Both the position numbers and the translations under genes were made by a program. The notes under the pieces are model-generated. The model did no database searches, was not told where the DNA came from, and saw only the letters and a program-made list of their open reading frames with translations. This document shows, one piece after another, positions 4,803 through 41,808 of a stretch of 64,000 nt of DNA. The stretch comes from Deltaproteobacteria bacterium HGW-Deltaproteobacteria-2. GTDB lineage: Bacteria > Desulfobacterota > Syntrophia > Syntrophales > Smithellaceae. The stretch spans positions 437,901 through 501,900 of the forward strand of contig PHBC01000001.1 in assembly GCA_002840505.1 (NCBI GenBank), in the 5' to 3' direction. Numbering within the stretch: position 1 is the stretch's first letter; every line of letters begins with the position of its first letter.

Positions 4803-7417
<2,615 letters not shown>

Positions 7418-7484
7418 TTTTCATCTCTCTTTTAATAAAGTTGTTATGTTAAAAAATTGACTTGCTTATATTCACCCCGCCAAA

Positions 7485-24360: not shown

Positions 24361-25995
24361 ATGCGTGCATTTCGTGTTTTGTCCATTATATCTCTGATCA
24401 TCATATCTTTAACCGCCTGCGATAGAAAACCTTCGGCAGATAAAGTTCAACCTTTATCCGACAAACCACCTGCTTATGGCGATATACTGGTCAGAGGTGA
24501 AATCGGCGATGCCAGCAACCTGATTCCGCTTCTGGCTTCCGATTCGGCTTCCCATAATATTTCCGGCATGGTTTTCAACGGCCTCGTCAAATACGACAAG
24601 GATATGAACATCGTTGGTGATCTGGCTGAATCATGGGACATAACTGACAAAGGCCTGGTTATTACTTTTCATCTGCGCAAAGGTGTAAAATGGCATGACG
24701 GTAAACCATTTACCGCCGTTGATGTTCTCTACACTTATCAGGTCACTGTTGACCCGAAAACGCCCACGGCTTATGCGGAAGATTTTAAAATGGTAAAAAA
24801 GGCTGAGGCTCTTGACGATTACACTTTCCGTGTAACTTATGGGAAACCTTTCGCTCCGGCACTGATCAGTTGGGGCAGTTCGATCTTGCCCCGACATTTA
24901 CTATGGGGAAAAGATATTACCAAAAGTCCGCTGGCACGTCATCCTATCGGCACGGGGCCTTACAAATTCAAGGAATGGGTTGCCGGACAGAAAATCGTTC
25001 TTGTTTCCAATCCCGATTACTTTGAAGGGCGTCCCTATATCGACGGTCAGATCACGCGGATTATTCCCGATACCGCCACAATGTTTCTGGAATTGCGTGC
25101 CCAGAACCTCGGCATGATGGGACTGACACCTCTGCAATACACACGGCAGACAGAAAACAATTTGTTTAAAAATAATTTTAACAAGTATCGCTACCTTAAT
25201 TTTGCGTATACTTACCTTGGCTACAATCTGAAAAATCCGCTTTTTATCGATAAGCGAGTGCGGCAGGCAATTTCGTATGCCATTAACAAGGATGAAATTA
25301 TCAGCGGCGTACTGCTGGGACTGGGTAAACCGGCAACCGGCCCTTACAAACATGGCACATGGGCTTACAATGATAACGTTAAAAAATACAATTACGATCC
25401 GCAAAAGGCGCGTGAACTGTTGCGTGAGGCAGGGTGGACGAAGTTAAATAGTGAAGGCGTTTTGGAAAAAGACGGCAAACCCTTCGTTTTTGAAATAGTT
25501 ACCAATCAGGGCAATGAGACAAGGCAGAAATGCGCGGAAATTATTCAGCGGCAGCTTAAGGAAGTCGGCATCACAGTAAAAATCCGTATACTTGAATGGT
25601 CGGCCTTTGTGACAGACTTTATCAACAAGCGTCGTTTTGATTCAGTGATTATGGGCTGGACAATTCCGCTTGATCCTGATGCCTATGATGTCTGGCACTC
25701 CAGCAAAACAAAGCCGGAAGAACTGAATTTTATCTCCTACAATAATCCGGAAGTGGACAGAATACTGGAAAAGGGACGCACCACCTTCGACCAGAGCCAA
25801 AGAAAAAAATATTATGACCGCTTTCAGGAAATTCTAGCGGAGGATCAGCCCTACACGTTTCTCTACGTTCCTGATGCATTGATCATCACACACAACCGTT
25901 TTCGGGGCATTGAACCCGCACCCATTGGACTGGAATACAATTTCATCAAATGGTACGTCCCCAAAGATGAACAGAAATACACCATGACCAGATAA
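24361..25995 (+). CDS. Family 5 peptide-binding lipoprotein (OppA/DppA-like)
   Basis: A 544-residue extracytoplasmic solute-binding protein. The signal peptide ends in the lipobox LTAC (Cys20), so it is a lipoprotein. The SBP family 5 core includes GMVFNGLVKYDKDMNIVGDL, WDITDKGLVITFHLRKGVKW, KDITKSPLARHPIGTGPYKF and RVRQAISYAINKDEII. Such proteins deliver peptides or nickel to an ABC permease pair. None is encoded next to it, so it is an orphan or works with a transporter elsewhere. Confidence 0.92.
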   Translation: MRAFRVLSIISLIIISLTACDRKPSADKVQPLSDKPPAYGDILVRGEIGDASNLIPLLASDSASHNISGMVFNGLVKYDKDMNIVGDLAESWDITDKGLVITFHLRKGVKWHDGKPFTAVDVLYTYQVTVDPKTPTAYAEDFKMVKKAEALDDYTFRVTYGKPFAPALISWGSSILPRHLLWGKDITKSPLARHPIGTGPYKFKEWVAGQKIVLVSNPDYFEGRPYIDGQITRIIPDTATMFLELRAQNLGMMGLTPLQYTRQTENNLFKNNFNKYRYLNFAYTYLGYNLKNPLFIDKRVRQAISYAINKDEIISGVLLGLGKPATGPYKHGTWAYNDNVKKYNYDPQKARELLREAGWTKLNSEGVLEKDGKPFVFEIVTNQGNETRQKCAEIIQRQLKEVGITVKIRILEWSAFVTDFINKRRFDSVIMGWTIPLDPDAYDVWHSSKTKPEELNFISYNNPEVDRILEKGRTTFDQSQRKKYYDRFQEILAEDQPYTFLYVPDALIITHNRFRGIEPAPIGLEYNFIKWYVPKDEQKYTMTR

Positions 25996-26082: not shown

Positions 26083-26997
26083 ATGAAAAACATGAAAAAT
26101 AAAACCCCCATAGTCATAATTAGCGGCTTTCTCGGAAGTGGAAAAACTACTCTCTTAAAGAGGTTCATCGATTGGGAGTTTGTACGGGGTAATCAACCAC
26201 AGGTTATAATGAGCGAATTTGGTGATTTTGATATCGATAGCAAAATTATTGCCGACGAACGACTGCAAGTAACTTCAGTTATTGGCGGATGTATTTGCTG
26301 CAGTAACCGAGATGAATTATTGGTATCATTACAACGTATAATAGCACAAAACCCCGGAGCACCAGTTTATATTGAAACCACAGGTATTGGTGACCCGGCC
26401 GGAGTATTACAGAGTATTAGTTCTGTTCTAAATTCTAATGTTTTAATCAACAAGATTATTGTTGTTTATGACACCAGCCGGCACGGCAACAATCATAGGG
26501 ACTATGTTCTTATAGAAAAACAACTTATGACTGCTGATATAATTGTTTTAAACAAAACAGACATAGCTTCAATGGATGTGAAAAAAACAGAAACCGATAT
26601 CGCAACAATTAATCCCACCGCTCAACTGATTAGTGCGGTTGATTGTGACATCGATCTTAATTCTGTGTTAAAAGGCGCCACCTGTTGTTTTGCAGGAAGC
26701 AAAGAAACGGTTAACACGGATAATTACCACTCTTTTGCCTTTAAAATAGAAACCAGAATTCTCCGCGATAAATTCGAACAATGGCTTAAGTCGTTACCTG
26801 AAGATATAATAAGGCTCAAAGGATTTGTTAGATTTCAATCTGAAAATGGGCTTTTCGAGGTACATTATAGTAGAGGTAACTACCGAATAAAGATTTTTGA
26901 AAATACAGAGTGGATGGATGCTACGCTAAGCATCATCAGCCATCCCATTTCTTCAAATGAAATCTTAAAAGGCTTTAAGTCCTGTATCCTGGATTGA
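26083..26997 (+). CDS. CobW/COG0523-family GTPase metallochaperone
   Basis: A 304-residue GTPase. Walker A is GFLGSGKTT (15-23), the metal-binding motif is CICC in VIGGCICCSNRDELL, and the G4 motif is NKTD in IVLNKTDIAS. The C-terminal CobW_C-like part is shorter than in CobW itself. Family members handle zinc, cobalt, nickel or iron. The convergent corrinoid methyltransferase operon next door makes a cobalamin link attractive but unproven. The start may be M1 or the ATG three codons later. Confidence 0.85.
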   Translation: MKNMKNKTPIVIISGFLGSGKTTLLKRFIDWEFVRGNQPQVIMSEFGDFDIDSKIIADERLQVTSVIGGCICCSNRDELLVSLQRIIAQNPGAPVYIETTGIGDPAGVLQSISSVLNSNVLINKIIVVYDTSRHGNNHRDYVLIEKQLMTADIIVLNKTDIASMDVKKTETDIATINPTAQLISAVDCDIDLNSVLKGATCCFAGSKETVNTDNYHSFAFKIETRILRDKFEQWLKSLPEDIIRLKGFVRFQSENGLFEVHYSRGNYRIKIFENTEWMDATLSIISHPISSNEILKGFKSCILD

Positions 26998-27116: not shown

Positions 27117-28691
27117 CTAGAAATTCAGCGCCGCGATGAACTCTCGTTCGAAATCGGGATGACGCACAAGATCGACCTCTTGAATTTTGTCACGCAACAG
27201 ATAGGAATTGGTTATGAATTCTTTATCAAGACAGGCCCCTTCGGCAGCCTTCAAACTGGTATTGCCTAAAAAATGATATTGTGCCGAGAGAAAATCAGGA
27301 ATAAATTTCAAACGGCGGAGATTACCTGGTTCAATATTTTGACCAAAAGTGCCGGCAACTATAACGTGTTCAATATCTTCTGGTAAACAACCTACCTCTC
27401 TCAATAAAATATTAGCCGCGGCAAGGCTTGCACCTTTGGCCAATTGAACGCTTCTAATATCTGCCTGGGTCAATGCTATATTTCCCCATAAATTAATCTG
27501 TTTGCCCTTCGCAGTGTGTTCATATCGCATCGGAGCAGGAAGGATTCTGGTTTCGATCTGGGGATGAAATGATCCACTCGAGGTCAGATGACCAGTCTCA
27601 AGGAGAACGGAGAGAAGATCGATGACGGCTGTGCCTGTTATTCCGACAGGCGATCCATTAGGGATCATTTCATATTCCAAGATATCTTGATTCAGCCGAA
27701 TGTGAATAATGGCTCCTGAATCAGCCGTCATACCACAACTGATATTCATGCCCTCCAGAGCCGGTCCCATGGCACAGGAGGCGGCCGCAATTTGACCCGA
27801 GGAATTAATCAGGAACATCTCACCATTGGTTCCCATATCGATAAAAAAAGTATTCCTGCAAAATCCTTCTGTATGGCACAGGGTAAGTCCTCCGACTAAA
27901 TCGCTGCCCAGGAAAGCGGAAGCAGCCGGCAGAGCCAGCACTTGAGCGTTGGGAAAGATATTATGACTATCGATATCTTCCGGTTTGAATCCATGAAAAT
28001 CGAGGCGTTGAGCCTGATAGGGATAAATACCCATGGAAGTCACATCCAGGCCGAAAAGAAAATGCAGCATCGTGGTATTGCCCGCTATGATCAATTGCCG
28101 TATTCTCTGCGGCGAAAGGTTGACAGACTTGAGGATGTCTACCATGGATGCATAAATGCGTTTGCGTATGATCCGGATTAAATCTCGGAAAACACGCGGC
28201 TCATGCGCTGCTGCAATTCTTGAAATGACATCATGACCATATCTTCTTTGGGGGTTAAAAAAACTGTCCAGCAGGTAGCTTTTTTGGTGCAAGGGATCAA
28301 CCAGCGCGACCTGAATAGTTGTAGTACCAATATCAACTGCCATACCATAATCGGCATGAACATCAAGAGAAGGGCAATGTGCAATGGTAACAGGCGGCTT
28401 CTCTTGGACATGAACGCGCGCATTTCCGGTAATCATGGTCTGACAAGCCAGACGATAGCCCGGCTGATCGTGGAGCACTTTTGCTTCCATATCAGTTTTT
28501 CCCGAAAGCCGCCCTTCTACTTTAACCTTGCATTTCCCGCAGACTCCTTTACCGCCGCACGGCATAATAAGAGGAACACCTTCATCCACCAAGGCATCTG
28601 CCAAGAGCGTGTCCTCGGAAATGTTTACCCTTGTTGCGTCAGGTAGAAGAGTGAGAGTATATGCTTTCATTTCATAATCATCCTTCTTCAA
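27117..28691 (-). CDS. RACo-type ATP-dependent reductive activator of corrinoid protein
   Basis: A 524-residue protein. The N-terminal [2Fe-2S] ferredoxin domain has cysteines C45, C51, C54 and C83 (MPCGGKGVCGKCKVKV, YRLACQT). A linker leads to an ASKHA ATPase domain with DIGTTTIQVAL at about 117 and FIDMGTNGEM further on, matching the DUF4445/RACo C-terminal family. Such activators reduce inactive Co(II) corrinoid proteins to Co(I), using ATP. It is the last gene of the operon whose first structural gene is a corrinoid protein, which fits that role. The preferred start may be M8 (MKAYTLTLL). Confidence 0.92.
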   Translation of the reverse strand: MKKDDYEMKAYTLTLLPDATRVNISEDTLLADALVDEGVPLIMPCGGKGVCGKCKVKVEGRLSGKTDMEAKVLHDQPGYRLACQTMITGNARVHVQEKPPVTIAHCPSLDVHADYGMAVDIGTTTIQVALVDPLHQKSYLLDSFFNPQRRYGHDVISRIAAAHEPRVFRDLIRIIRKRIYASMVDILKSVNLSPQRIRQLIIAGNTTMLHFLFGLDVTSMGIYPYQAQRLDFHGFKPEDIDSHNIFPNAQVLALPAASAFLGSDLVGGLTLCHTEGFCRNTFFIDMGTNGEMFLINSSGQIAAASCAMGPALEGMNISCGMTADSGAIIHIRLNQDILEYEMIPNGSPVGITGTAVIDLLSVLLETGHLTSSGSFHPQIETRILPAPMRYEHTAKGKQINLWGNIALTQADIRSVQLAKGASLAAANILLREVGCLPEDIEHVIVAGTFGQNIEPGNLRRLKFIPDFLSAQYHFLGNTSLKAAEGACLDKEFITNSYLLRDKIQEVDLVRHPDFEREFIAALNF

Positions 28692-28729
28692 TTTTTGATC
28701 CCATCATGATTAAGAAGAGCATGCGAGAT

Positions 28730-29749
28730 TTAGTTTTTCGATGCCTGCCGGTCGTATTCATCAACAGCGGCAAAGAAAGCTTCTATACTACTCGTCGGCG
28801 TCCCGGGTGGTATATCACAGCCTGAAGACAGCACAAAATTACGGTATTCGGACATACACTCAAGTAGCGCTCTTGTTTTGTCCTTAATTTCTTCGGGAGT
28901 TCCTTGTTTGAAAACCGTTGCCGGGTCAAGATTTCCAAAAGCCAGGATGTGTTGCGGAATTTGGGGCATAATATCCGTCATGTTTACGGCATTTCCGAAG
29001 TGGAAGCCCTGCGCCCCGGTGGAAAGCATGGTGGGAACGAGTTTTTTCGTATTGCCGCAATTATGAAGAACAACTGTGAAGTTCTCATCTTGTACCGCTG
29101 CTACAATTCGGCTGACATAACGCGATGAAAATTCCTCGCACTGCGACGGGGATATGAGGCCCGCGGCCGGTTCAGCAATGAATATGCCTTGAGTGCCGGC
29201 AGCCTTATAAGCGTTGGCATAGCTAATCAGAAACTGGGTGCACTTCTCCAGCACTATATGCACCATACCGGGGTTGCTTAAGAGGTTCATAAATATTTTG
29301 CTCATTTCTCCCAATCGCCCAGCCAAAGAGAAAGGACCGATATGGCAGCCAAAAACAGGCCTGTCAAGAATGGCTGCAGCAGCGCGCTTTGCCGCATCCA
29401 GGTAGACTGCTGTTCGGCCGGCACCTACGTCCGGTATCGTGAGAGCCAATGCTGAGGATTGATCGGATACGAGTTGTCCAATCACCGTGGGAGTTTCGTT
29501 CTCGGCATATTTCACCTGAGCGCCAAAGGCCTCGGCCTCGACCGACAGGTCCATGATGGTGACAAAGCCAGCCGAAGGGTAGCGGTCTGCCAGGGCTTGC
29601 ATGCAGTGCGATTGTTTCTCGCCGTCCTTGACCACATCCAAAACGTTCATGCCTGTCAAGGACAAGCCAACATAAGTCATGATCGGGAAGGCGAGTCTTT
29701 TATCGGACCGGATTATGTTTTTCCTCCATTGTTCCATGTTTGTTTTCAA
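28730..29749 (-). CDS. UroD-fold zinc methyltransferase (MtaA/MtbA-like)
   Basis: A 339-residue TIM-barrel protein of the uroporphyrinogen decarboxylase superfamily. It is not a heme enzyme: it carries the zinc motif of methylcobamide methyltransferases, H229-x-C231 in VVLHNCGNT and C311 in LSSGCDIPPGTP. Other blocks are DRPVFGCHIGPFSLAGRLG and FIAEPAAGLISPSQCEEF. It probably binds the thiol-type methyl acceptor or donor and exchanges a methyl group with the corrinoid protein, as methyltransferase II. It lies 15 bp after the hydantoinase-like gene and 38 bp before the activator gene. Confidence 0.88.
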   Translation of the reverse strand: MKTNMEQWRKNIIRSDKRLAFPIMTYVGLSLTGMNVLDVVKDGEKQSHCMQALADRYPSAGFVTIMDLSVEAEAFGAQVKYAENETPTVIGQLVSDQSSALALTIPDVGAGRTAVYLDAAKRAAAAILDRPVFGCHIGPFSLAGRLGEMSKIFMNLLSNPGMVHIVLEKCTQFLISYANAYKAAGTQGIFIAEPAAGLISPSQCEEFSSRYVSRIVAAVQDENFTVVLHNCGNTKKLVPTMLSTGAQGFHFGNAVNMTDIMPQIPQHILAFGNLDPATVFKQGTPEEIKDKTRALLECMSEYRNFVLSSGCDIPPGTPTSSIEAFFAAVDEYDRQASKN

Positions 29750-29764
29750 TCTATTCCTCCTTAT

Positions 29765-31783
29765 TTAACCGTTTGCCAGTTTGGGTCTGCCGATGGCGGT
29801 AGCCTTGATCTCTGTGCCTAAAAAAAATCCTCCACTAGGGACACCATTACCTGAATCAATGATCTGATCCTTACGACTGATATGAACTTGAACAGCGGAC
29901 GCTCCGGCATACCGTGCATGCTCATCAGCTAAGCTACGTGCTTCTTCAGTAGCATAGGCAATGGCCTCTTCAAAGTTGTCAAAGTCCTGAATGCCGACAG
30001 GCAGGTGAACACGAAATCTTTCCGGAGCAAGAGGTTTAATGAAAGCACGTAAGGTTTGCATAACGCTGCCAGCCACGGCACCAACGGCATTAGCGACTTC
30101 AGCATGGTCGGGGATAATAAGCTGCGTATGCATCTTTTCGGCAACAGCCGGGAAATAAGTACGTACGGGAGCTCCGATCGCCACCAATGGCCGACGTAAG
30201 GTTAAACTCACCCCCATCAAGGTATCGAGATCATCCTGGCCAGCCAATGCTTGATCAACCAGAAGGCGGCCAAGCGAATTTTTACCATTCATGTTCATGT
30301 GATACCCTTCGGCCAGGGCGGTAGACACAATTGCCTTCCCTGCTTGTACGGTTATTTGATGTACTACCTTTTGGCAAAGGTCGCGGATCTGCATGATCGA
30401 CACTGAAGTGCACTTTCCTGCTTGTCGCGCCATGAGTTCGGCTCCCAAATTCGCTCCTTCTAACGACCATTCTTGAATGTACCCCAAGGCGTGCGCGGCA
30501 TCTGTGGGTGTGAATCCGCTGATCACCACCAGGCCATGCTCAACTAACCGTTCCAAGGCATATGACTTAAGCATGGTCACCTCAGACTCAAGTAGCAAAT
30601 CCAAAGCTACAGGACCATCTGCCAAAGCTTCCCACACCATAGTCTGAAACGGCGTAAGGTTTTCCCGAGCAACATCCAATGGTCTTTGGCGCAGGGCAAA
30701 CTGCCCGTCATGAAGCTTGAATGATGCTTGAGACACTTGTTGACGTAAGGCAGCGAGGACTGCCGGATATTGATGGGCCAAAAGACTCAAGGGAACCATG
30801 CGGGTAGGACCGAGAAACATATCTCCGGATTTATCCCAGGTAATCTGGCTGTCGCCGCCCAATCCGGACGTGTGCACCGACACAGCCTCCACCATGGTTT
30901 TCCATCCGCCGATGATTGCCCCTTCTTCATTAAGTATGGGTTTACCTGCACGGAGGATGGCGATGTCGGTCGTGGTACCTCCCATGTCCGCCACAAAGAC
31001 ATCTTCCATTTTCGATAAGTACCGCGCCCCAACCACGCTCGCGGCCGGACCGGATAGAATTGTCTCCACCGGGTGTTCCAACGCTACGCTAGCCTTTATA
31101 AGGGAACCGTCTCCCTTAACTACCATGAGGGGCGCATGGATAGCCTTCTCAGACAACATGTCCTGCACCGCCTGTATGAGTTGTTGCAGTAATGGAATGA
31201 GACGGGCATTCAAGACGGTTGTGAGCGCCCGGCGTGGTGCGTTGAGGTTTGAAGTTAGTTCGTGTCCGCAGGTAACCGGCAAACCGGTCAGTTCACGCAC
31301 CATATTGCGCACGGCCAGTTCATGGCTGGGATTATAGACACCTAAATAACCCGACACGGCAAAAGCTGCCGTATGGCCGGCATGCATAGTAATCGCCTGA
31401 CGTGCCGCATTCAGATCAAGAGGCCTCTGCTCTTCACCCGTGATGGTATGCCCACCATCTATGAAAACCACCGGGTCGCTTCCCAAGGCCTGGCTAAGTC
31501 CCTCACGATCCAAGGCATCCGGTGGATACCCCAGAAGTAACAGGCAGACAGGACATCCTCGTCCTTCAACCACGGCATTAGTTGCTAATGTCGTTGAAAG
31601 AGAGACCAGATTGATTTCGGGGGGTGGATCAGGCAAGGCCGCTTCCACAGCGGAACGGATGCCGAGATAGAGATTATGTTTGGTCGTCAGAGACTTACCA
31701 AAACCGATAACTCCTTTTTCATCATCAAGCAGGGCGGCATCGGTATAGGTGCCGCCGGTATCAATACCAAGAAGAATAGCCAT
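29765..31783 (-). CDS. Hydantoinase A / oxoprolinase-like ASKHA protein
   Basis: A 672-residue protein. It has the two phosphate-binding ASKHA motifs of HyuA: GIDTGGTYTD at 6-15 and DMGGTTTD at 265-272. Other blocks are STTLATNAVVEGRGCPVCLL and SNLNAPRRALTTVLNARLIPLL. HyuA enzymes open cyclic amides such as N-methylhydantoin or 5-oxoproline with ATP, usually with a separate HyuB subunit. There is no hyuB here. It is embedded in a corrinoid methyltransferase operon with 15- to 23-bp gaps, so it may activate a substrate that is demethylated afterwards, or may act as a second ATPase activator. The reaction cannot be read from sequence. Confidence 0.9.
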   Translation of the reverse strand: MAILLGIDTGGTYTDAALLDDEKGVIGFGKSLTTKHNLYLGIRSAVEAALPDPPPEINLVSLSTTLATNAVVEGRGCPVCLLLLGYPPDALDREGLSQALGSDPVVFIDGGHTITGEEQRPLDLNAARQAITMHAGHTAAFAVSGYLGVYNPSHELAVRNMVRELTGLPVTCGHELTSNLNAPRRALTTVLNARLIPLLQQLIQAVQDMLSEKAIHAPLMVVKGDGSLIKASVALEHPVETILSGPAASVVGARYLSKMEDVFVADMGGTTTDIAILRAGKPILNEEGAIIGGWKTMVEAVSVHTSGLGGDSQITWDKSGDMFLGPTRMVPLSLLAHQYPAVLAALRQQVSQASFKLHDGQFALRQRPLDVARENLTPFQTMVWEALADGPVALDLLLESEVTMLKSYALERLVEHGLVVISGFTPTDAAHALGYIQEWSLEGANLGAELMARQAGKCTSVSIMQIRDLCQKVVHQITVQAGKAIVSTALAEGYHMNMNGKNSLGRLLVDQALAGQDDLDTLMGVSLTLRRPLVAIGAPVRTYFPAVAEKMHTQLIIPDHAEVANAVGAVAGSVMQTLRAFIKPLAPERFRVHLPVGIQDFDNFEEAIAYATEEARSLADEHARYAGASAVQVHISRKDQIIDSGNGVPSGGFFLGTEIKATAIGRPKLANG

Positions 31784-31806
31784 ACACTCTTTGTCTCCGG
31801 TTGAAT

Positions 31807-32502
31807 CTATGCATCACACTCTTTGTGATCAGCTGAATGTGCCAGCGATTTTTGATATGGAGCTCTACGACCCGGACATTTTTCCAGGGGACATAATTGA
31901 CAGTTGACAAACCCTTCATCAGAAGCAAAGAAGATCCCTGACATGGATTTAAGCGGTTTCATCATGAGACCTTCCGTAAGAGTGACCCCAATCTTAACAG
32001 CATCGTCTCCGAACAGATGAAACAGATTCTGCTGTTCCTGAATCGGCCAATCAGTCAATGATCCGGGATTCATTGCGGATAGATTCCGGGGTTGATAGCG
32101 TTGCTTAATTGATGTTTCCAAGGCATGTATTGCACTACCGAGAGCAAAGTCTTGAATCGTATTTACCCAATACTTCTGAACAATATCGGTAAACTGCTGC
32201 GACCATTCTTCCATCTCTGTGCCGCAAGTACACAGGAAGGGGAGCACGATGTCAGACTTGCCCAGATTGTTTTTTAAGAGACGGCTATGCAATAAAATTG
32301 CATCAATCTCTACTACATCCTCGTCGGGATATTTAGCTAATGCAATTTTATATAAAGCTTTCGGTCTGCCAATTCGCATGGCATCGGTCGCCAGCTTGGT
32401 TACAGTATCAATTGCAGAAGGATTATTTTGCAGTCGCAAGCTATTTACCAATAGATTCACATCAAGTACGAATGGGATTTCATCTATGATAACTTTATCC
32501 AT
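31807..32502 (-). CDS. MetH-activation-domain-like protein
   Basis: A 231-residue protein resembling the reactivation (AdoMet-binding) region of B12-dependent methionine synthase, with LGSAIHALETSIKQ, NLSAMNPGSLTDWPIQEQQNLFHLF and GVTLTEGLMMKPLKSMSG in the order seen there. A C-terminal tail adds cysteines C201, C204 and C209 (CQLCPLEKCPGRRAPY), as in stand-alone homologues near corrinoid genes. It could reactivate or repair oxidised corrinoid using AdoMet, in parallel with the RACo activator. It lies 23 bp before the hydantoinase-like gene. Confidence 0.85.
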   Translation of the reverse strand: MDKVIIDEIPFVLDVNLLVNSLRLQNNPSAIDTVTKLATDAMRIGRPKALYKIALAKYPDEDVVEIDAILLHSRLLKNNLGKSDIVLPFLCTCGTEMEEWSQQFTDIVQKYWVNTIQDFALGSAIHALETSIKQRYQPRNLSAMNPGSLTDWPIQEQQNLFHLFGDDAVKIGVTLTEGLMMKPLKSMSGIFFASDEGFVNCQLCPLEKCPGRRAPYQKSLAHSADHKECDA

Positions 32503-32530
32503 AACCGTTACATCCTTTACATCGCAGCTA

Positions 32531-33724
32531 TTAATAGTATCCGTATTTGTATACAGAATTAATCAAAGCCTTAAGGTTTTCCGGACGGGAATTGGCTGGA
32601 ATTTCACACCCGCCAGCCAGAATAAATCCTCCGCCTTTGCCTACCTCTTCAATCAGGCGATGACAATATTCATCCACTTCCTGAGGACTGCCCATCACCA
32701 GTCGCGAGGCGGATACGTCACCGAAAATACACATGCGATCTCCGATCTCTTCCTTGGCACGGAAAATATCGGTCATACCATCCATTTGCAGGATGCATTT
32801 CTTAGCAGGCAGGCGGCGCATGATCTTGAGGTTCTTCAGCCAATCGCCGTCGCAATGGAGTATCGGTGTGATTCCGGCATCGATCAGCCGATTGATAATA
32901 ATCTCCATACTGGGGAAAGCCAGATTTTCGAAATGCCGCGGAGATATGAAGCTATTAGATGTACGGTGCAGGTATAATTGTACCCTTGGTATACCCATCA
33001 GCTTGGCCGTGAGGATCGCGAACGCCGCATACCCGTCTGCAAGTTTGGTAGCCGCTTTTCCGATCTTATCAGGTACATTGAAGAGGTCTTTGGAAAAGTT
33101 TATTACATTTCTGCCTTGAGAAAAAGTATCAAACGGCATTTCAGCCTGATAGCCCATTTGCACCGCCAGTCCCTGCTTCTCCCACCACTTGAAGTCGCGC
33201 CTCCAGAACACAACCTGGCCAAGGAGGCCTGTAAGCACTTTCATAGATAATCGGGGAAGACCATATCCCTCAACGTCCAGACTGAAACGCGGAAGCATCT
33301 TCAAGCGAAAAATGAGGTCACCCCAATACTTAGCGCCCCAGGATGTATCGTTCAAAATCTCATCATAATCTTCCGGCCGCATGTACTCAATTTCTTCGGT
33401 CTGCACAACATCATCGAGGGGAAGATCCACCCCCGGCCACAGCGATCGCATCATCATCACAAAAGTATACACGAGGCGTGAGTAAGGATTGATATTGTAG
33501 TAAATATCCCAGGGTCCAAGATCCGCATAAACCTTATGCATCACTTGCTTGTATGTCTCAGGATTTCTCAGGTATTCGCCCATGCTCGTACCGGTATGGT
33601 AGGGTGCATAATAGTAAATCATCATGGAAACCGGCACGCGATCCGGTTTTTCACACTTAATAACCTTTTCAAGCCGCTCATCGGCGGTCATCGAATCTTT
33701 ATCATAGAGCTTCTTTTTCTGCAT
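32531..33724 (-). CDS. UroD-fold methyltransferase, probably substrate-specific
   Basis: A 397-residue uroporphyrinogen decarboxylase-superfamily protein, longer than the second copy at 28730. At the zinc-site positions it has H290-C291-D292 (ITPILHCDGDWL, HxD type) and C373 (LAGGCEIPANSRPEN) instead of the HxC pair, so its metal site or substrate differs. It lies next to the corrinoid-protein gene (68 bp downstream of it), the usual position of the substrate-specific methyltransferase I. The paralogue at 28730 would then be methyltransferase II. Which methylated compound it uses is unknown. Confidence 0.85.
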   Translation of the reverse strand: MQKKKLYDKDSMTADERLEKVIKCEKPDRVPVSMMIYYYAPYHTGTSMGEYLRNPETYKQVMHKVYADLGPWDIYYNINPYSRLVYTFVMMMRSLWPGVDLPLDDVVQTEEIEYMRPEDYDEILNDTSWGAKYWGDLIFRLKMLPRFSLDVEGYGLPRLSMKVLTGLLGQVVFWRRDFKWWEKQGLAVQMGYQAEMPFDTFSQGRNVINFSKDLFNVPDKIGKAATKLADGYAAFAILTAKLMGIPRVQLYLHRTSNSFISPRHFENLAFPSMEIIINRLIDAGITPILHCDGDWLKNLKIMRRLPAKKCILQMDGMTDIFRAKEEIGDRMCIFGDVSASRLVMGSPQEVDEYCHRLIEEVGKGGGFILAGGCEIPANSRPENLKALINSVYKYGYY

Positions 33725-33792
33725 ACGGCCTCCTCATACACATTTATTAGTATTGAGATATACTCAAACGTTATCTTATATTTTGCAGATGG

Positions 33793-34440
33793 CTAGGCGC
33801 CGGCAAATGATTGAATAATGCGAATACCTTCATAACCATCCCAGGTTTGCGCATCTGCCCCTATTTTTTCCGCCAGGTCTTTTGAGGTCGCGCCTCCGCC
33901 AATAATTACCTTGACACCTTCACGCAACCCATTTTCTTTGAGCAGTTCGACTACCTGGGCCATATATGGATAGGCGGTAGTGATCAAAGCTGACATACCG
34001 AGGATTGTCGCACCGGTTGCTTTTACTTTATCGATAAAACTTTCAGGAGGAACATCTTCGCCTAGGTTATAAACTGTAAAACCAGCTGCTTCAGCCAGGA
34101 TACAAAAAATATCTTTTCCCAGGGCATGGATATCTCCCTTAGGGGTTCCGATGACAATTGTTCCCAGATTCCTTTGACCATCGCCGAGCTTCAAGTGCGG
34201 TTTAATCATGGAGCTAATCTGCTTGAATATTTCTCCGGCCATGACCAGTTCGGGCAGGTAATAGTCGCCGGCTTCAAACTTCTTTCCGACCTCTTCCATG
34301 CACTGCTGGCATGCACGCAGGAAATCATGGGGCAAACAGCCTGACTCAAGCAGTCTCTCCGCCTCTTTAGTTATTGAATCCAGATGAAAAGAAAAAAACT
34401 TCTCCTGAAAAACATCGAAAGCATCCTTGTCACTCGCCAT
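33793..34440 (-). CDS. Corrinoid (B12-binding) methyl-carrier protein
   Basis: A 215-residue two-domain protein. The helical cap is at about 1-90 (EVGKKFEAGDYYLPELVMAGEI). The B12-binding Rossmann domain has KGDIHALGKDI: H105 of DxHxxG is the lower axial ligand (most relatives read DIHDIG). It continues with GATILGMSALITTAYPYM and VIIGGGATSK. It resembles MtaC/MtbC-type corrinoid carriers. It is first in the structural operon after tetR, and its methyl group would be exchanged by the two UroD-fold enzymes encoded downstream. Confidence 0.94.
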   Translation of the reverse strand: MASDKDAFDVFQEKFFSFHLDSITKEAERLLESGCLPHDFLRACQQCMEEVGKKFEAGDYYLPELVMAGEIFKQISSMIKPHLKLGDGQRNLGTIVIGTPKGDIHALGKDIFCILAEAAGFTVYNLGEDVPPESFIDKVKATGATILGMSALITTAYPYMAQVVELLKENGLREGVKVIIGGGATSKDLAEKIGADAQTWDGYEGIRIIQSFAGA

Positions 34441-34521
34441 TGCCTCTCCTCCTTATTCAATTCAAAGATATTTTATTAAAATTCATCCAGTACATTCTGG
34501 AATGATAAACCAAAAGAATAA

Positions 34522-35199
34522 TTAACTTTTTTTTCTGGATATTTTTCTCTTTTTCAGACTATCTATAATTTCTGCTTTTACCTTGCCCGGCAGGAGATAT
34601 CTTGCCATATTTTCAATCAATACCTGTTCTATGGGCATCCTCTTCTCCAGCATTGACATGTAAATGTAACCTTCCACAGAGAGGAGAAGTAAAAGAGCCA
34701 AAGAAGATTCTTCAAGTTCGGCATTTAGATATCCGGAGTCCTTGCCTTGTCGAATAAGCGCCTCAAGTTGACGGAGTACTTGTTGGTAATAGCCGTTTAC
34801 TCTATCCTTGAAATTTTCGAGTGGTTTATTAGTGTTGTTATGCAGCGAACCGAAGTGAACAAGCCGGTTCAATAGATTTTGTTGATTGAATAAAGCGACA
34901 AATTTCCGCATGTATTGGAATAGTTTTTCTTCAAAGGGATCATTGGAATCCAGCGTAGCCTGTAAGAGTTCACAATACGGAACCATGCAGCGGTCAATAA
35001 GTTCGTTAAAAAGTGCCGCTTTATTGTCCCAATACCAATAAATTAATGCCTTACTGTATCCGGTATCGGCAGCAAGATCGTTCATGCTGGAATGATCATA
35101 TCCTTTGATAGAAAAGACCTTTAACGCAGAATTAATAATTTCCTCCCGGCGCTGAGTTTCTTTGAGATTTCTCCTCAGACCCATGGTTTTCTGTTTCAT
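34522..35199 (-). CDS. TetR-family regulator of the corrinoid operon
   Basis: A 225-residue TetR repressor. The HTH is at about 15-60 (REEIINSALKVFSIKGYDHS, SMNDLAADTGYSKALIYWYW). The ligand-binding region follows, with a basic C-terminus (LKKRKISRKKS). It lies at the head of the corrinoid operon (81 bp before the corrinoid gene) and divergent from the double-cluster ferredoxin protein. A perfect 32-bp palindrome 30 bp upstream of its start is the likely operator, which would put both directions under its control. The inducer is unknown. Confidence 0.93.
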   Translation of the reverse strand: MKQKTMGLRRNLKETQRREEIINSALKVFSIKGYDHSSMNDLAADTGYSKALIYWYWDNKAALFNELIDRCMVPYCELLQATLDSNDPFEEKLFQYMRKFVALFNQQNLLNRLVHFGSLHNNTNKPLENFKDRVNGYYQQVLRQLEALIRQGKDSGYLNAELEESSLALLLLLSVEGYIYMSMLEKRMPIEQVLIENMARYLLPGKVKAEIIDSLKKRKISRKKS

Positions 35200-35228
35200 A
35201 TAAAATCCTCCGCAGGAATAATATAGCC

Positions 35229-35260
35229 AACTATTATACTGAACGTTCAGTATAATAGTT
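35229..35260. promoter_or_regulatory. Perfect 32-bp palindromic TetR operator
   Basis: The half-site AACTATTATACTGAAC at 35229-35244 is exactly mirrored at 35245-35260, centred on GAACGTTC. It lies 30 bp upstream of the tetR start and 370 bp upstream of the divergent ferredoxin gene, so binding would block the tetR-corrinoid promoter. The core TGAACGTTCA is the same as in the operator of the second TetR gene at 42533. Confidence 0.82.
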
Positions 35261-35623
35261 TTTGTAGGATACAGAAGACATGTATATTTGTCAATAAAAA
35301 AATAAACCTAAATAATAACTGAAAAAACAACATATTTTTTATGCTAAATAACAGATTTTATAACGTTTTTAATATATTGCTAATCGAAAAAAAATATTCC
35401 TTGACTTGTAGACGACCGGTCCAATATGTTGATAAATATGTCAAAAGCATAATTACCATTCATGGATTTTTACAAAGGTACATCCGTTGATGGTGACAAA
35501 CGTAAAGTCAATTGATGAGATACTGCGTATACCTTTAACGGCGGAAAAGGTATAATTGAAACGGTTGATCTTCAACTTCTTACTATGTGTTAAACCCGTA
35601 GAAAAATTCTATATAAAAGGAGC
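35261..35623. other. Long leader region before the ferredoxin gene
   Basis: About 360 bp of AT-rich DNA downstream of the operator, with no ORF of note. A 9-bp inverted repeat, TATACCTTT and AAAGGTATA, lies at 35528-35554, about 76 bp before the start codon, and may be a second regulatory site. A ribosome site (AAAGGAGC) lies at 35617. Confidence 0.45.
35528..35554 (+). promoter_or_regulatory. Inverted repeat upstream of the ferredoxin gene
   Basis: TATACCTTT at 35528-35536 and AAAGGTATA at 35546-35554 are perfect complements separated by nine bases. It could bind a dimeric regulator or form a leader hairpin. It is unlike the TetR operator core. Confidence 0.4.
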
Positions 35624-35629
35624 TTGATT

Positions 35630-36946
35630 ATGGGACATCTAGTTGGAAAAGACATTTATAAAAAACTGGGAGAGAAGATTGATAATTTAACGGTCAAGGC
35701 ACCCTGGAATGATGCCGTTTACAACATTTTTAAAACTCTCTACACACAGGATGAAGCCGAAGTTATTGTAAAGATGCCTTATGTTTTATCAAGTTTCAAC
35801 CGTATTCAAAAAATAACAAAAATTGAGCCCACAAAATTACGAAAGATACTGGAGAGCCTATGCGTCAAAGGTCTGGTTATCGATATCTGGGCCAACAATA
35901 CCTACAATTATATGATTTCGCCAATGCTCATCGGCGTATTCGAATTCACAATGATGAGAAATAATCCTGATCTTAATTCCAAGGAATGGGCTAAATTATT
36001 TCATCAATATCTCCAAGGTGATGGCGGACCTTTATATGCAGAAAACAGCAAAGAAGGACATAAGATATCCTTTGCCCGGACACTCCCTCATGAAGGCACT
36101 ATTCCGGATGAAGACCATGTCGAAGTTCTGGATTACGAAAAGGCCACATCAATTATTAAATCGTTTAATAAATTTTCAATCGGGCTGTGTTCCTGCCGGC
36201 ACGAAAAACATCATATTGATGAAAAAAAATGCGATATCCCTCTGGATACATGCACTTCATTTGGTTTTGGAGCGGACTATCTCATCCGGAACAATCTGGC
36301 AAAAGAAGTTTCTAAAACACAAATGCTTGAGCACTTTGCCCGGTCAAAAGAATTGGGCCTGGTTTTTAATGCGGACAATGTGCAGAAAAATATAACCTTT
36401 ATCTGCCACTGTTGCGGCTGTTGCTGTAACATATTGCTGGGTATTTCCAAATTTGGCTATCCTAATTTCGTCGTAACATCCAATTACATCGCCGAAATCG
36501 ATGAAAAATTATGCAATGGCTGCGGTAAATGCGCTAAAGCCTGTAAGATCGACGCCATTCAAATGGTTACCATTGAGAAGCCCCTAACCAAAAAGAAGAA
36601 GGATGCCAAAATTAATAAGGAGTTCTGTATTGGCTGCGGAGTATGTGCTCTTGCCTGCCCCACAAAAGCAATGAAACTTGTGAAACGCGACAAGCGTGTT
36701 ATTACGCCGGAAACTGTCTTCGAAAGAATTATCCTGCAATCATTTAAAGCCGGTAATCTACAAAATCACATTTTCGATAATCCTCAGAGCAAAACACAGG
36801 ATTTCATGCGTGGTTTTGTGGGAGGATTCCTCAAAATACCATCTGTTAAAAAGGCTCTCCTAAGCGATGCCCTGCGTTCCACCTTTCTGGCCACGATGAA
36901 AATAGGCATACACTTACAAGGGAAAGGATGGATAACAAAATTATAA
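35630..36946 (+). CDS. Two-[4Fe-4S] ferredoxin protein with HTH-like N-terminal domain
   Basis: About 438 residues. The N-terminal third (VKMPYVLSSFNRIQKITKIE, TKLRKILESLCVKGLVIDI) resembles a winged-helix domain. The middle has extra cysteines (GLCSCRHEKHH, DTCTSFGFGADY, FICHCCGCCCNILLG). The C-terminal third carries two classical [4Fe-4S] motifs, CNGCGKCAKAC and CIGCGVCALAC. It is probably an electron donor or sensor, possibly supplying the activator of the divergent corrinoid operon. ATG at 35630 has AAGGAG eight bases upstream; TTG at 35624 is too close to it. Similar proteins are widespread in syntrophic deltaproteobacteria, with unknown biochemical role. Confidence 0.85.
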   Translation: MGHLVGKDIYKKLGEKIDNLTVKAPWNDAVYNIFKTLYTQDEAEVIVKMPYVLSSFNRIQKITKIEPTKLRKILESLCVKGLVIDIWANNTYNYMISPMLIGVFEFTMMRNNPDLNSKEWAKLFHQYLQGDGGPLYAENSKEGHKISFARTLPHEGTIPDEDHVEVLDYEKATSIIKSFNKFSIGLCSCRHEKHHIDEKKCDIPLDTCTSFGFGADYLIRNNLAKEVSKTQMLEHFARSKELGLVFNADNVQKNITFICHCCGCCCNILLGISKFGYPNFVVTSNYIAEIDEKLCNGCGKCAKACKIDAIQMVTIEKPLTKKKKDAKINKEFCIGCGVCALACPTKAMKLVKRDKRVITPETVFERIILQSFKAGNLQNHIFDNPQSKTQDFMRGFVGGFLKIPSVKKALLSDALRSTFLATMKIGIHLQGKGWITKL

Positions 36947-37053: not shown

Positions 37054-37606
37054 TCATCGAGGTGATTGACCGATAAGGAATCTATTAACAATAAAGCCAA
37101 AACGCCCGTAAAAAGCAAGATTGTCTTCTTTTGAGTTTTCCAGATAGGCCCAACACTTTTCACGGTCACAAATATGTAGTGTCGGCATCATCAATGCCAT
37201 GCCTGCACTCTTGCCATGATATTTAGAAACCACCACAATGAACTGTAAATAATAATGCCTTTCCTTGGGATGGCATCTTTCAAGCTTATCCATTACAGAT
37301 AACAGACGTAACAATTCCTTCCAGCTTACTGCATGAATCATTTTGGACGAAAGGTCAATTGCTTTACATAGCTGACCTTCGATGCCCCCAGCGGATACCA
37401 TAATGCCGCTCCGGTGAGATCTTTTGTCGTAAGCACCTTTTCATGCTGCAGGCACAAATCTGATATTCATGTATGAAACAAGAGCTCTGGCCCTCGAGTT
37501 TTTTTTCATCCTTACGGATTATCCAGTTGACGATAGGATCATCATCAAACGCCATCACAAGAGACGCAACTAAGCGATCGGTGCTGCGCAAAAGGCCTTT
37601 CTAATC
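37054..37606 (-). pseudogene. GNAT acetyltransferase broken by two frameshifts
   Basis: Fragments of one GNAT protein are spread over three frames. The N-terminal part (DRLVASLVMAFDDDPIVNWI) is in one frame. A central piece is in a second (KVLTTKDLTGAALWYPLGAS, at about 37385-37440). The C-terminal part is in a third (HYYLQFIVVVSKYHGKSAGM, then AYLENSKEDNLAFYGRFGF), up to 37054. Each matches the expected order of GNAT motifs, so at least two frameshifts have occurred. It lies between convergent neighbours. Sequencing error is possible but would need two errors in one gene. Confidence 0.75.
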
Positions 37607-37641
37607 TTGTCATTCAATGCATTCATTTCTTTGAAAACCTA

Positions 37642-38874
37642 TTATTCAACGATTTCATAACTGTCTATTCGCCGAGCCATGAATGCAAATGCCCCAATCA
37701 CGCAAAGAAGACCGCCTAGAAATAACGTGTGCGGGGTTCCCAGTTTGGCGGACAGCACACCGGCCAGATAACTTCCCACAGTGGCTGCACCCGTAAATAT
37801 CATGGTATAGCAACTCATGATTCTTCCCCGTTTGCTTTCTTCGATGATGGTTTGTATGAATGAGATAGTGGCTGCCATAAGCATCATCATGCAGGCACCT
37901 ATAACCGCCGCCACAACCATTGACAGGATCAGATTTCTGGAAAATGAAAGCGCAATGATGCCTATGCCGAATAAGGCGGTTGTAAAAGCGATCACTATAT
38001 CCATCCCCGAATTATTTTTCTTGGAACCGAGGAATATGGCTCCAATGAGCGCGCCCGCTCCGGATGCCATCATGAGCATCGAAAAAGTATGGGCGTCACC
38101 CCGCAACAGATCTCTGGCTATTACCGGCATGAGAACCGTATATGGCCATCCCGATAGGCAGACCAGCCCGTAAAGAAGCAATACGTTTTTGACAGGTTGG
38201 AATCCGAACGCATACGCAAAGCCTTCCTTCATCTCGCGGAATAATCCGGTATTTTTAGTTCTTTTACTTGTGGATATGGTTTTCATCATAACAAGCGAAG
38301 CAATTACGGCAATATAACTCATCCCATTGATTAAGAAGCAGAGCGCCTCTCCACTGTAGGTAATAATTATTCCGGCAATAGACGGGCCGATCAATCTCGC
38401 ACTATTGACAATTGTGGAATTGATTGCCATAGCGTTGCAATAATTAGTTTTATCGCCAATAAGTTCCGGCAGAAAAGCCTGGCGGGCGGGCATTTCGAAA
38501 GCGTTAATGACACCGAGAAATACATTGAGGAGAATGATAATACCAACGGAGATATTTTCCGTATAACAACAATACGCAAGCATCAGAGCTTGAATAAGGC
38601 TGAGAATTTGCGTAGCCATCACTATACGATAGCGATTCCATCGATCAATGAGCACTCCGGCAACCGGGGCTATGATAAAAGACGGGGCAAGTCCGGCAAA
38701 GACAACCAGCCCCAACAATAATGTAGATCCGCTCCTCTGATACACCAGCCAGGGAAGGGCAATTCTCTGTATCCAGGTTCCAATGAGCGATATGCCCTCC
38801 CCGAAAAAAAAGAGCCTGAAATTCCTGCAACCGAGAGTTCGGAAAATAGCTTTTATTGCATTATCCCTTGCCAT
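37642..38874 (-). CDS. MFS exporter (EntS/MFS-3-like)
   Basis: A 410-residue protein with about 12 hydrophobic segments and the motif-A-like loop VLIDRWNRYRIVMATQ. N-terminal FRLFFFGEGISLIGTWIQRIALPWLVYQ matches the MFS_3/EntS exporter family. The second half repeats the pattern (GAGALIGAIFLGSKKNNSGM). The substrate is unknown. It follows the oleate hydratase homologue by about 170 bp on the same strand and may be cotranscribed. Confidence 0.9.
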   Translation of the reverse strand: MARDNAIKAIFRTLGCRNFRLFFFGEGISLIGTWIQRIALPWLVYQRSGSTLLLGLVVFAGLAPSFIIAPVAGVLIDRWNRYRIVMATQILSLIQALMLAYCCYTENISVGIIILLNVFLGVINAFEMPARQAFLPELIGDKTNYCNAMAINSTIVNSARLIGPSIAGIIITYSGEALCFLINGMSYIAVIASLVMMKTISTSKRTKNTGLFREMKEGFAYAFGFQPVKNVLLLYGLVCLSGWPYTVLMPVIARDLLRGDAHTFSMLMMASGAGALIGAIFLGSKKNNSGMDIVIAFTTALFGIGIIALSFSRNLILSMVVAAVIGACMMMLMAATISFIQTIIEESKRGRIMSCYTMIFTGAATVGSYLAGVLSAKLGTPHTLFLGGLLCVIGAFAFMARRIDSYEIVE

Positions 38875-39043
38875 AATACATCTACCAGCGGCTGTCGTTT
38901 TTTTGTTGAAACACCAGCAAACCTAACATGTACCGCCTTCTATTGATTCACACCCTATAACCGGTTTTCGCACATATTTACTCTAATTAAAGTGTATACC
39001 GGGTTTTTCAACCCGGCATATAAATAGAAATAAAAAATTATCT

Positions 39044-40798: not shown

Positions 40799-40926
40799 AC
40801 AAACCTCCTATTTTCTTTATTAGTTACAATGTAACGAAATTGAGATTCTTCTTTACGCTTAGGTATGACCTGCATGGTGACCTTGGCAATGCCTGTCCGC
40901 TGAATGCAAAGTATAAGTCCCAGAAT

Positions 40927-40951
40927 GTACTCAGGAAATATATCTGAGTAC
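40927..40951. promoter_or_regulatory. Inverted repeat after the SDR gene
   Basis: GTACTCAG (40927-40934) and CTGAGTAC (40944-40951) form a perfect 8-bp arm pair with a nine-base AT-rich loop, between the SDR stop and the oleate hydratase start. There is no T-run on the minus strand, so an operator or mRNA hairpin is as likely as a terminator. Confidence 0.4.
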
Positions 40952-40971
40952 AGGTTTCATTCTTCATGTGA

Positions 40972-41808
40972 TCAATCTCCACCTAAACCCAGTATTTTAT
41001 CCAGGATGCCTCGTGAGTACAGAAATGCATTGACATTGAAGAATGTGTTCGGTGCCATCCTCTTCATGAACCAAAGAAACTTTGCATCCGGTTGAGGAAG
41101 AACGTACAATTTATTTTTTTTTATGGCCTTGAGAGTGGAGGCGCATATACTTTCTACTTTGCCGAAGGAGAATTTGTTGAAAAAAGCCTTTGCCATCTTT
41201 AACTGGCGTTCATCAGCACATCTCGCCTGATCCATGAGGTTTGACTTAAAGAATGTCGGGCATACAACAGTGACCCCTATATTACTTTTCCTCAGCTCAA
41301 TGCGTAGGGTCTCTGATATAGATATAACCCCTGCCTTTGCCGCGCTGTATGGGGACATTTCGGGCAAAGAGACAATCCCAGCGGACGAGGCTACATTCAC
41401 AATATGCCCCCATCCTTGTTTCTTGAAGATGGGGATAAATGTCCTGCACCCGTAGATGACGCTCATAAGCATTATATCGATCTCGAAATTCCAGTCTTCC
41501 AGAGGAACCTTCTCCATGAAACCTACAACCGGGACACCAGCATTGTTAATGATGATGTCTATCGTACCCCACGTAGAAATCACAATATCGGACAAGGCCT
41601 GCACTTTTTCTGGTTTTGTGACATCGCACTCGACGGCAAGGCCATTTCCCTTTCCGTTCATGAGTCGTACAGTTTCATTGGCAGTTTCAAGATTTATATC
41701 GCTGACAGCAACCCTCCAGCCTAGCTTGGAAAAATCGAGTGCGAGCCCGCGGCCTAACCCACTGCCGGCGCCTGTAATAACAACTGTCTTTGTTTTGAAC
41801 CGATCCAT
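40972..41808 (-). CDS. Short-chain dehydrogenase/reductase
   Basis: A 278-residue SDR. The cofactor motif TGAGSGLG is at 12-19, NNAG is in IIINNAGVPVVGF, the catalytic Ser is in VNVASSAGIVS, and YSAAK gives Tyr and Lys. The classical fold is complete. The C-terminal extension after residue 200 resembles SDRs of lipid metabolism. It lies between TetR2 and the oleate hydratase homologue on one strand, so it may oxidise the hydroxy fatty acid made there. That pairing is an inference. Confidence 0.93.
   Translation of the reverse strand: MDRFKTKTVVITGAGSGLGRGLALDFSKLGWRVAVSDINLETANETVRLMNGKGNGLAVECDVTKPEKVQALSDIVISTWGTIDIIINNAGVPVVGFMEKVPLEDWNFEIDIMLMSVIYGCRTFIPIFKKQGWGHIVNVASSAGIVSLPEMSPYSAAKAGVISISETLRIELRKSNIGVTVVCPTFFKSNLMDQARCADERQLKMAKAFFNKFSFGKVESICASTLKAIKKNKLYVLPQPDAKFLWFMKRMAPNTFFNVNAFLYSRGILDKILGLGGD

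Follow-up and report, generated by a model that had tools for sequence, protein, structure and literature searches.

A 64,000-nucleotide stretch of the genome of Deltaproteobacteria bacterium HGW-Deltaproteobacteria-2 (contig PHBC01000001.1, positions 437,901 to 501,900; hereafter the window) carries a real, conserved corrinoid methyl-transfer operon. It belongs to a known kind, but its acceptor side is unusual and its reactivation set looks enlarged. Its seven minus-strand open reading frames (ORFs) span 27117-35199 and, in order of transcription, encode TetR, CorC, UroD1, MHact, HyuA, UroD2 and RACo, separated by 81, 68, 28, 23, 15 and 38 bp; an eighth ORF, for the polyferredoxin-like FeS440, diverges from tetR. 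All eight ORFs were found where an earlier reading of the window from its letters (hereafter the sequence-only reading) had placed them, including seven minus-strand genes with gaps of 15-81 bp. Domain families were assigned with Pfam and NCBIfam, and Pfam agrees with the family names of that reading (RACo, URO-D twice, Hydant_A_N/Hydantoinase_A, Met_synt_B12, B12-binding, TetR_N and Fer4). The residues it quoted are also correct (H290-x-D292 and C373 in UroD1; H229-x-C231 and C311 in UroD2), and its overall description, a TetR-type-regulated corrinoid methyl-transfer operon to which no substrate can be assigned, is supported.

In our judgment, the chances are about even that the operon directs TetR-regulated corrinoid demethylation in which UroD2 delivers the methyl group to a thiol, not to folate, and in which RACo, MHact and HyuA form the enlarged reactivation set. 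UroD1, the proposed methyltransferase I (MT I), would move a methyl group from a donor, probably an O-methyl compound, to the Co(I) corrinoid of the carrier CorC. From CorC, UroD2 with its His-Cys-Cys ligands would hand the group to a thiol instead of tetrahydrofolate, the direction of flow being predicted as well. CorC in the cob(II) state would be rescued by RACo through ATP-driven reduction, with electrons possibly from FeS440. MHact, which has the fold of the MetH activation domain, a lost S-adenosylmethionine (SAM) motif and a Cys tail, may join this rescue, and the HyuA-like ASKHA protein is proposed as the second ATPase of reactivation. TetR would repress from a 32-bp palindrome until an inducer arrives.

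Proposed donor and acceptor sides

Publications are cited by PubMed Central number. In the Cdm system and the O-demethylases compared with it, the carrier methyl group passes to tetrahydrofolate via a methyltransferase II (MT II; PMC13222342). Pfam finds no pterin-type MT II in the operon. Genomes are labeled here with G and fetched loci with L; G000 is the window's genome (3.28 Mb, 98.4% complete) and G326 a second species of the genus. Genome-wide, the PF00809 matches of G000 are a dihydropteroate synthase (DHPS)-like protein and MetH only, and G326 likewise has two matches. We take the full-length, strong match in G000 to be DHPS. MetH of G000, the only PF02574 match there, is an 800-aa protein that combines homocysteine, pterin and B12 modules and does not match Met_synt_B12. 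The search was able to succeed, since PF00809 does detect the pterin methyltransferases of related clusters. The claim of the sequence-only reading that MT I, carrier, MT II and activator are all present therefore fails for a folate-type MT II; UroD2 fits that place only if the acceptor is another one, most likely a thiol, or if it methylates folate in an unprecedented way.

Ligands H229, C231 and C311 of UroD2 were read from an alignment with MtaA (4ay7). Over 90 UroD rows, which include both window proteins and exclude 7 duplicate loci and matches of less than 150 residues, the ligand sets were His-Asp-Cys (HDC) in 49, His-Cys-Cys (HCC) in 17, His-Cys-His (HCH) in 15 and others in 9. Orthologues of UroD2 (56-82% identical) occur in L104 (the G326 locus), L193, L116, L117 and L222, where the neighboring MT I proteins have the ligand sets HDC, HDC, HCH+HCH, HCH+HCN and HDN, respectively; at none of these five loci does a pterin methyltransferase lie within 6 kb of MHact. 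Because UroD2 stays constant while MT I changes among relatives, we infer that it acts on the acceptor side and would hand the methyl group to a thiol. According to Kountz and Balskus (PMC10418091), His-Cys-Cys sites are associated with S or Se substrates, and O substrates with carboxylate ligands; by this rule UroD2 would face a thiol and UroD1 an oxygen compound.

Transfer to folate after all, as the sequence-only reading had it, would require UroD2, or MetH in reverse, to pass the CorC methyl group to tetrahydrofolate. We regard this as quite improbable. The operon does have the UroD-fold MT I, carrier and RACo-type activator of a folate-linked demethylase, and with MetH and one MTHFR-related protein G000 is equipped for methyl-folate chemistry; a pterin methyltransferase occurs in related clusters such as L155 and L125, and acetogen MtaA is said to methylate tetrahydrofolate (PMC5770442; likened by description, not by protein family). 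What speaks against this route is that PF00809 finds no stand-alone pterin methyltransferase in G000 or G326, that His-Cys-Cys favors thiols (PMC10418091) and that the UroD2 loci of Smithella relatives have no pterin enzyme near MHact. A check for the Wood-Ljungdahl pathway gave PF03598 matches in short ORFs only (L259, at G000:C5 near 233955, and G000:C3:630840-631259); one ORF, 246 aa long, covers only a portion of the 705 positions of the AcsB model (acetyl-CoA synthase beta), and its neighbors on the two sides encode a BcrAD/BadFG-type activase and a MinD/ArsA-like ATPase.

The His-Cys-Cys set of UroD2 is also that of mlp-type enzymes, and type 1 mlp clusters share with the operon UroD-fold proteins, a carrier, a RACo-type activator, one His-Cys-Cys protein and the lack of a folate methyltransferase (PMC10418091). 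UroD2 might accordingly transfer methyl groups between CorC and sulfide, selenide or methylated S or Se compounds, a reading we consider unlikely. SelB scores above the cut-off in G000 and G326, and selenocysteine machinery is found in 87% of species with mlp clusters (PMC10418091); SelB alone is weak evidence. Type 1 clusters need both Mlp2 and Mlp3, which are nearly always His-Cys-Cys, whereas the second UroD protein of the operon is His-Asp-Cys, and the core genes named for these clusters include neither MHact nor HyuA (PMC10418091). With one His-Cys-Cys protein only, as judged by ligand residues, the operon was rejected as a type 1 mlp cluster. The pairing of UroD2 orthologues with MT I proteins of several ligand types fits an acceptor-side role better.

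Thiol transfer by UroD2 would be fed by UroD1, whose ligands H290, D292 and C373 are invariant in 24 of 24 UroD1 sequences and would hold its predicted metal. A UroD1 profile has CdmB as its sole match in the Protein Data Bank (PDB) at E 1e-5 (9.1e-39), and UroD1 might thus channel chloromethane or a similar compound to CorC, as a Cdm-kind haloalkane dehalogenase. This is highly improbable: CdmB has a hydrophobic cavity and showed no metal in its crystal (PMC13222342), the profile alignment places different residues of CdmB at all three ligand positions that UroD1 keeps, and the genome search turned up no CdmA-type pterin MT II. The predicted UroD1 model (predicted local distance difference test score, pLDDT, 94.9) has the UroD/MtaA fold, and CdmB is not among the matches listed for it. 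CdmBCA and the Odm, Vdm, Mtv and Mto systems have in common with the operon a UroD-fold MT I, a B12 carrier and an ATP-dependent activator (PMC13222342); the operon differs in the pterin MT II, which was not found, and in its extra MHact and HyuA, with Odm, Vdm, Mtv and Mto compared by description.

The closest UroD1 relatives (56-65% identical; L124-L130 and L132) have CorC alongside in 7 of 8 loci and TetR in 2, and L125 has a pterin methyltransferase next to the set. Near UroD1 relatives, an acyl-CoA-ligase cluster occurs in 9 of 52 loci and a short-chain-dehydrogenase cluster in 10 of 52, and the Smithella cluster L193 holds CoA_trans, Oxidored_FMN and Amidohydro_2 genes. These neighbors hint at a carboxylic acid or CoA ester as substrate and name none. 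That the His-Asp-Cys site of UroD1 faces an oxygen compound, with an O-methyl donor, is our guess.

As a separate observation, the His-Cys-His proteins (15 of the 90 rows) form a UroD-fold clade of their own, represented in L106, L116-L120, L040, L041, L046 and others. We know of no described methyltransferase with this ligand set, for which no literature search was made.

Proposed reactivation proteins

Corrinoids that have reached Co(II) are rescued by two established routes, SAM-dependent remethylation, carried out with the MetH activation domain, and ATP-driven reduction by RACo/RamA. The operon encodes a RACo with an N-terminal 2Fe-2S domain (TTG start, with an in-frame ATG 7 codons in) and, in MHact, a stand-alone protein resembling the first route. 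The MHact profile finds TM0269 (1j6r) at E 5.7e-12, and its predicted model (pLDDT 89.8) superposes on 1j6r with Z 17.1 over 185 residues at a root-mean-square deviation of 2.6 (Foldseek E 1.5e-08). When the model was run through VIA-align, only MetH activation-domain chains stood out, nitroreductase-like rows with Z below 5 being background. MetH structures assign the R-x-x-x-G-Y motif a role in SAM binding. Of the two marks of a SAM-dependent reactivator, MHact has the activation-domain fold, according to the model, and lacks this motif, which is replaced by A-M-N-P-G-S; its tail reads C201-x2-C204-x4-C209-x2-R. Compared with TM0269, the stand-alone MetH reactivator that it resembles in fold and sequence, MHact has lost R-x-x-x-G-Y, gained the Cys tail and would serve a carrier in an operon with RACo.

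Loss of the motif is associated with RACo at the level of clades. We collected 93 MHact homologues (99 matches less 6 duplicates from contigs found twice), with G326 standing in for the window copy; the searches that gave these loci started from MHact, HyuA or UroD1 of the window, so the loci are not a random sample. GY is kept in 46, of which 45 have Arg four positions before Gly; PGS or PGA replaces it in 40, of which 8 have this Arg, and the remaining 7 have other residues. RACo lies within 6 kb in 0/46 GY, 15/40 PGS and 1/7 other loci (Fisher test of GY versus PGS, 1.8e-6). The contrast persists where 5-kb flanks were required (0/28 versus 15/27, RACo-bearing rows being kept at any flank) and where CorC is nearby (0/34 GY versus 10/15 PGS, p 3.7e-7). 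HyuA is near MHact in 0/46 GY, 7/40 PGS and 5/7 other loci. A C-x2-C-x4-C tail is present in 90 of the 93, the exceptions being L239 and two proteins encoded at MetH loci, one in G000 and one in G326.

Those two MetH loci, L191 (G000:C3:200000-219900) and L192 (G326), have the same layout, with an 800-aa MetH that lacks an activation domain. At L191 the stand-alone reactivator without the Cys tail lies at 7050-7679 and a second TetR-UroD-carrier-reactivator set at 8000-11269.

HyuA has the ASKHA fold family's hydantoinase domains and no HyuB partner. PF02538, which would include fused HyuA-HyuB proteins, has 0 matches in G000 and 0 in G326, and a four-seed profile finds HyuB at 0 of 28 places with HyuA relatives; HyuB is present elsewhere in two more distant genomes, G077 and G475. 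The 28 places are all those besides the window's own, each of them examined, and L045, L105 and L106 doubled as profile seeds. HyuA was accordingly rejected as half of a HyuAB enzyme (hydantoinase, oxoprolinase or caprolactamase). Among HyuA relatives scoring at least 500 bits, 15 of 16 have a corrinoid-pathway gene within 6 kb, by which we mean MHact, RACo, a carrier, UroD, a pterin methyltransferase, MTTB, a homocysteine methyltransferase or DUF1638. By Pfam, MTTB occurs at L107, L110 and L113 and a homocysteine methyltransferase at L106 and L112, DUF1638 is fused to HyuA in L109 and L114, and the HyuA and RACo genes as called in L108 share 4 bp. Because HyuA accompanies several kinds of corrinoid system, a servicing role in reactivation would fit it better than a role with the substrate.

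Two described systems bear on this role. In Phaeobacter, mutant fitness ties DUF1638 and a RamA-like DUF4445 protein to B12 reactivation, with no specific proposal from the authors for DUF1638 (PMC5764234). RACo belongs to the same broad family as the RamA-like protein and two HyuA relatives are fused to DUF1638; the operon itself has no DUF1638, and the Phaeobacter set, according to its description, does not include HyuA. Formimonas, Sporomusa and Frackibacter likewise have a hydantoinase-A gene (HydA) without an assigned role inside their corrinoid methyltransferase clusters for glycine betaine; HydA is likened here by description, and the MT I of those clusters is of the MttB superfamily (PMC9768040). 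In the literature on hydantoinases and corrinoids, as far as its text was available, we found no proposal of reactivation for HyuA.

HyuA might instead be a substrate enzyme that uses ATP to activate or open an N-methylated amide, a hydantoin or a carboxylatable substrate, which the UroD/corrinoid part then demethylates. HyuA matches Hydantoinase_A models and subunits of caprolactamase and acetophenone carboxylase, a glycine betaine cluster co-expresses HydA and MttB-type enzymes (PMC9768040), and UroD1 bears a distant fold resemblance to ApcE of acetophenone carboxylase (9fou, TM 0.45/0.55). With no HyuB found in G000 or G326 or near any of the 28 relatives, and with HyuA found alike beside MTTB, UroD and homocysteine methyltransferases and adjoining RACo in L108, we consider this role decidedly unlikely. 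The sequence-only reading had set the MetH-activation-like and HyuA-like genes outside the demethylase scheme. Corrinoid reactivation is where fold, motif and neighborhood point for MHact, and neighborhood and DUF1638 fusions for HyuA; both "extra" genes are most likely reactivation parts, and reactivation is a function that the scheme already includes.

Conservation and regulation of the operon

G326 carries FeS440 and all seven genes in identical order at 73-92% identity. The same arrangement in SCVW01000030.1 (Smithella sp. isolate SDB_sulfate1) appears to be the same record as G326, which makes the window organism probably a Smithella-type bacterium. Ratios of nonsynonymous to synonymous substitution (dN/dS, Nei-Gojobori) against G326 are 0.047 for CorC, 0.050 for UroD1, 0.060 for FeS440, 0.087 for UroD2, 0.122 for HyuA, 0.143 for TetR, 0.182 for RACo and 0.184 for MHact, compared with 0.066 for the flanking SBP5 gene. 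This order, identity and dN/dS of 0.05-0.18 place the gene set, FeS440 included, beyond chance. The same seven-gene order, which the sequence-only reading had expected in several genomes, was thus found in one other; rearranged sets are commoner.

Within the genus the operon appears to be disappearing. SBP5 regions were fetched from 12 further congeners, of which 9 have both flanks on one contig and 3 end before the operon site, and in all 9 an intact operon is absent from the site. Three RACo fragments and one FeS440 fragment remain in G130 (L216) and an interrupted FeS440 in G327 (L214); the other 7 have neither a RACo nor a FeS440 remnant, 5 of them also at a looser threshold and L218 and L219 as searched at E 1e-5 only. 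From the fragments we infer that the operon was once more widespread in the genus and is now being lost.

Farther afield, a Chloroflexi metagenome-assembled genome (L155) has a compact run of CorC, UroD1, CobW, a 126-aa protein, MHact, HyuA, RACo and pterin methyltransferase, and L045 and L115 hold CorC, UroD1, CobW, pterin methyltransferase, MHact and HyuA together. By gene content, the recurring module is carrier, UroD1, MHact and HyuA, with RACo in some cases, and the predicted acceptor side varies, being of pterin type in L155, L045 and L115 and UroD2 in Smithella. MHact and HyuA are both present in only 4 of the 46 loci found in the UroD1-based search (L123, L145, L155 and L168), so the full module is uncommon even among UroD1 relatives. 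Among titles and abstract openings on Smithella, corrinoids and methyltransferases, none concerns this operon.

Table 1. Features of the operon and its regulatory region, numbered from the first nucleotide of the window
Feature	Position	Strand	Match or source
RACo, predicted ATP-dependent reductive corrinoid activator	27117..28691	-	RACo_C_ter 3.9e-61, Raco_middle, Fer2
UroD2, MtaA/MtbA-like, ligands H229, C231, C311, proposed acceptor side	28730..29749	-	URO-D 2.6e-57
HyuA-like ASKHA protein without HyuB, proposed reactivation-set ATPase	29765..31783	-	Hydant_A_N, Hydantoinase_A
MHact, stand-alone MetH-activation-fold protein (predicted)	31807..32502	-	Met_synt_B12, weak, 3.7e-07
UroD1, proposed MT I, ligands H290, D292, C373	32531..33724	-	URO-D 3.4e-30
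CorC, corrinoid carrier, cap domain and DIHALGK motif	33793..34440	-	B12-binding 8.6e-20, B12-binding_2 1.8e-09
TetR-family regulator, first operon gene	34522..35199	-	TetR_N 8.4e-14
Operator-like perfect 32-bp palindrome at tetR promoter	35229..35260	.	sequence
Promoter-like TTGACA-17-TATCCT upstream of tetR	35266..35294	-	read by eye
FeS440, divergent polyferredoxin-like, candidate electron donor	35624..36946	+	Fer4 models

The 32-bp palindrome lies downstream of TTGACA-17-TATCCT and ahead of the tetR ribosome site. Its 22-bp core recurs upstream of tetR with 1 mismatch in G326, 1 in L116 and 3 in L117; in L124, where TetR is 50% identical, the best core site has 6 mismatches and none lies within 5. 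The remainder of the 424 bp between tetR and FeS440 aligns poorly with G326. A palindrome at the promoter that is kept at orthologous sites is what a TetR-regulated operon would show, with binding and repression predicted. The sequence-only reading had described an operator shared with FeS440: the operator-like palindrome exists, but it sits at the tetR promoter and sharing is unsupported. Since the palindrome is 363 bp from FeS440, we call sharing possible only. FeS440 adjoins the operon in G326, and we count it as a part mainly because it decays together with the operon in G130 and G327.

A second copy of the operator core (42534-42555, 2/22 mismatches) lies just upstream of a TetR-type gene at 42022-42516, whose 164-aa product is 26% identical to the operon TetR over 99 residues. 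Then follows a block (37054-41808) encoding a short-chain dehydrogenase, an MCRA-family protein, which we take to be oleate hydratase-type, an MFS_3 transporter and an acetyltransferase. The G326 copy of FeS440 directly adjoins the homologue of 42878-43450, so that the block with the second TetR looks inserted. Cross-talk between the two TetR-type regulators is possible.

Two neighboring genes were rejected as operon members. CobW (26083-26997) is convergent to the operon and was not found at the corresponding place in G326; CobW genes do occur near UroD1 relatives elsewhere. SBP5 (24361-25995), a candidate for the operon's binding protein, occurs in 15 of the 17 genomes of the genus and stands without the operon in the 12 further regions fetched, including the 3 that end before the operon site. 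At other loci, the carrier and RACo genes of two Smithella corrinoid clusters are separated by a MutS domain V ATPase gene (L116:4938-6734, by Pfam, and L117:5201-6889, by clustering). In L155, L158, L161-L164, L168 and L105, genes for a CobW half-protein (about 195 aa) and for an unannotated protein (122-134 aa) occur together next to those for UroD1 and the carrier; one of the unannotated proteins, L155:11775-12155, has no Pfam match.

A possible third arrangement for corrinoid rescue

Several observations weigh against the proposed demethylation onto a thiol with an enlarged reactivation set. UroD2 has the His-Cys-Cys set yet scores below the curated cut-offs for coenzyme M methyltransferases (best NCBIfam 156.7 bits versus 244), and a genome that is 98.4% complete could hide an overlooked MT II. 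For MHact, RACo is missing from the 6 kb around 25 of the 40 PGS proteins. Motif type changes only twice on the tree and RACo presence 12 times, and an independent-pairs test has too few pairs to reach significance; the MHact/RACo contrast comes down to essentially a single split between clades, an association at the clade level. A Cys at the C93 position occurs in only 24 of 40 PGS proteins and in 0 of the other 53, so a predicted four-Cys cluster would characterize no more than part of the clade. Among HyuA relatives, L111 has no corrinoid-pathway gene despite a score of at least 500 bits, 12 lower-scoring relatives have one in 1/12, and the HyuA family is widespread in ATP-dependent substrate enzymes.

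A bolder proposal, which we advance tentatively as possible rather than probable, is that HyuA and the Cys-tailed MHact without a SAM motif form an undescribed ATP-driven, SAM-independent reactivation complex. It would act beside or instead of RACo and serve UroD-, MTTB- and homocysteine-type systems, and in Smithella, with no folate-type MT II in the genome to take the methyl groups, the pathway served would for that reason end on a thiol. The data suggest, next to the two established routes, a third rescue arrangement in which a MetH-type fold lacking the SAM motif works with ASKHA ATPases. If true, this would give a role to HyuA genes found unexplained in corrinoid clusters, and folate-free demethylation onto a thiol would alter the view of which methylated compounds Smithella-type bacteria use.

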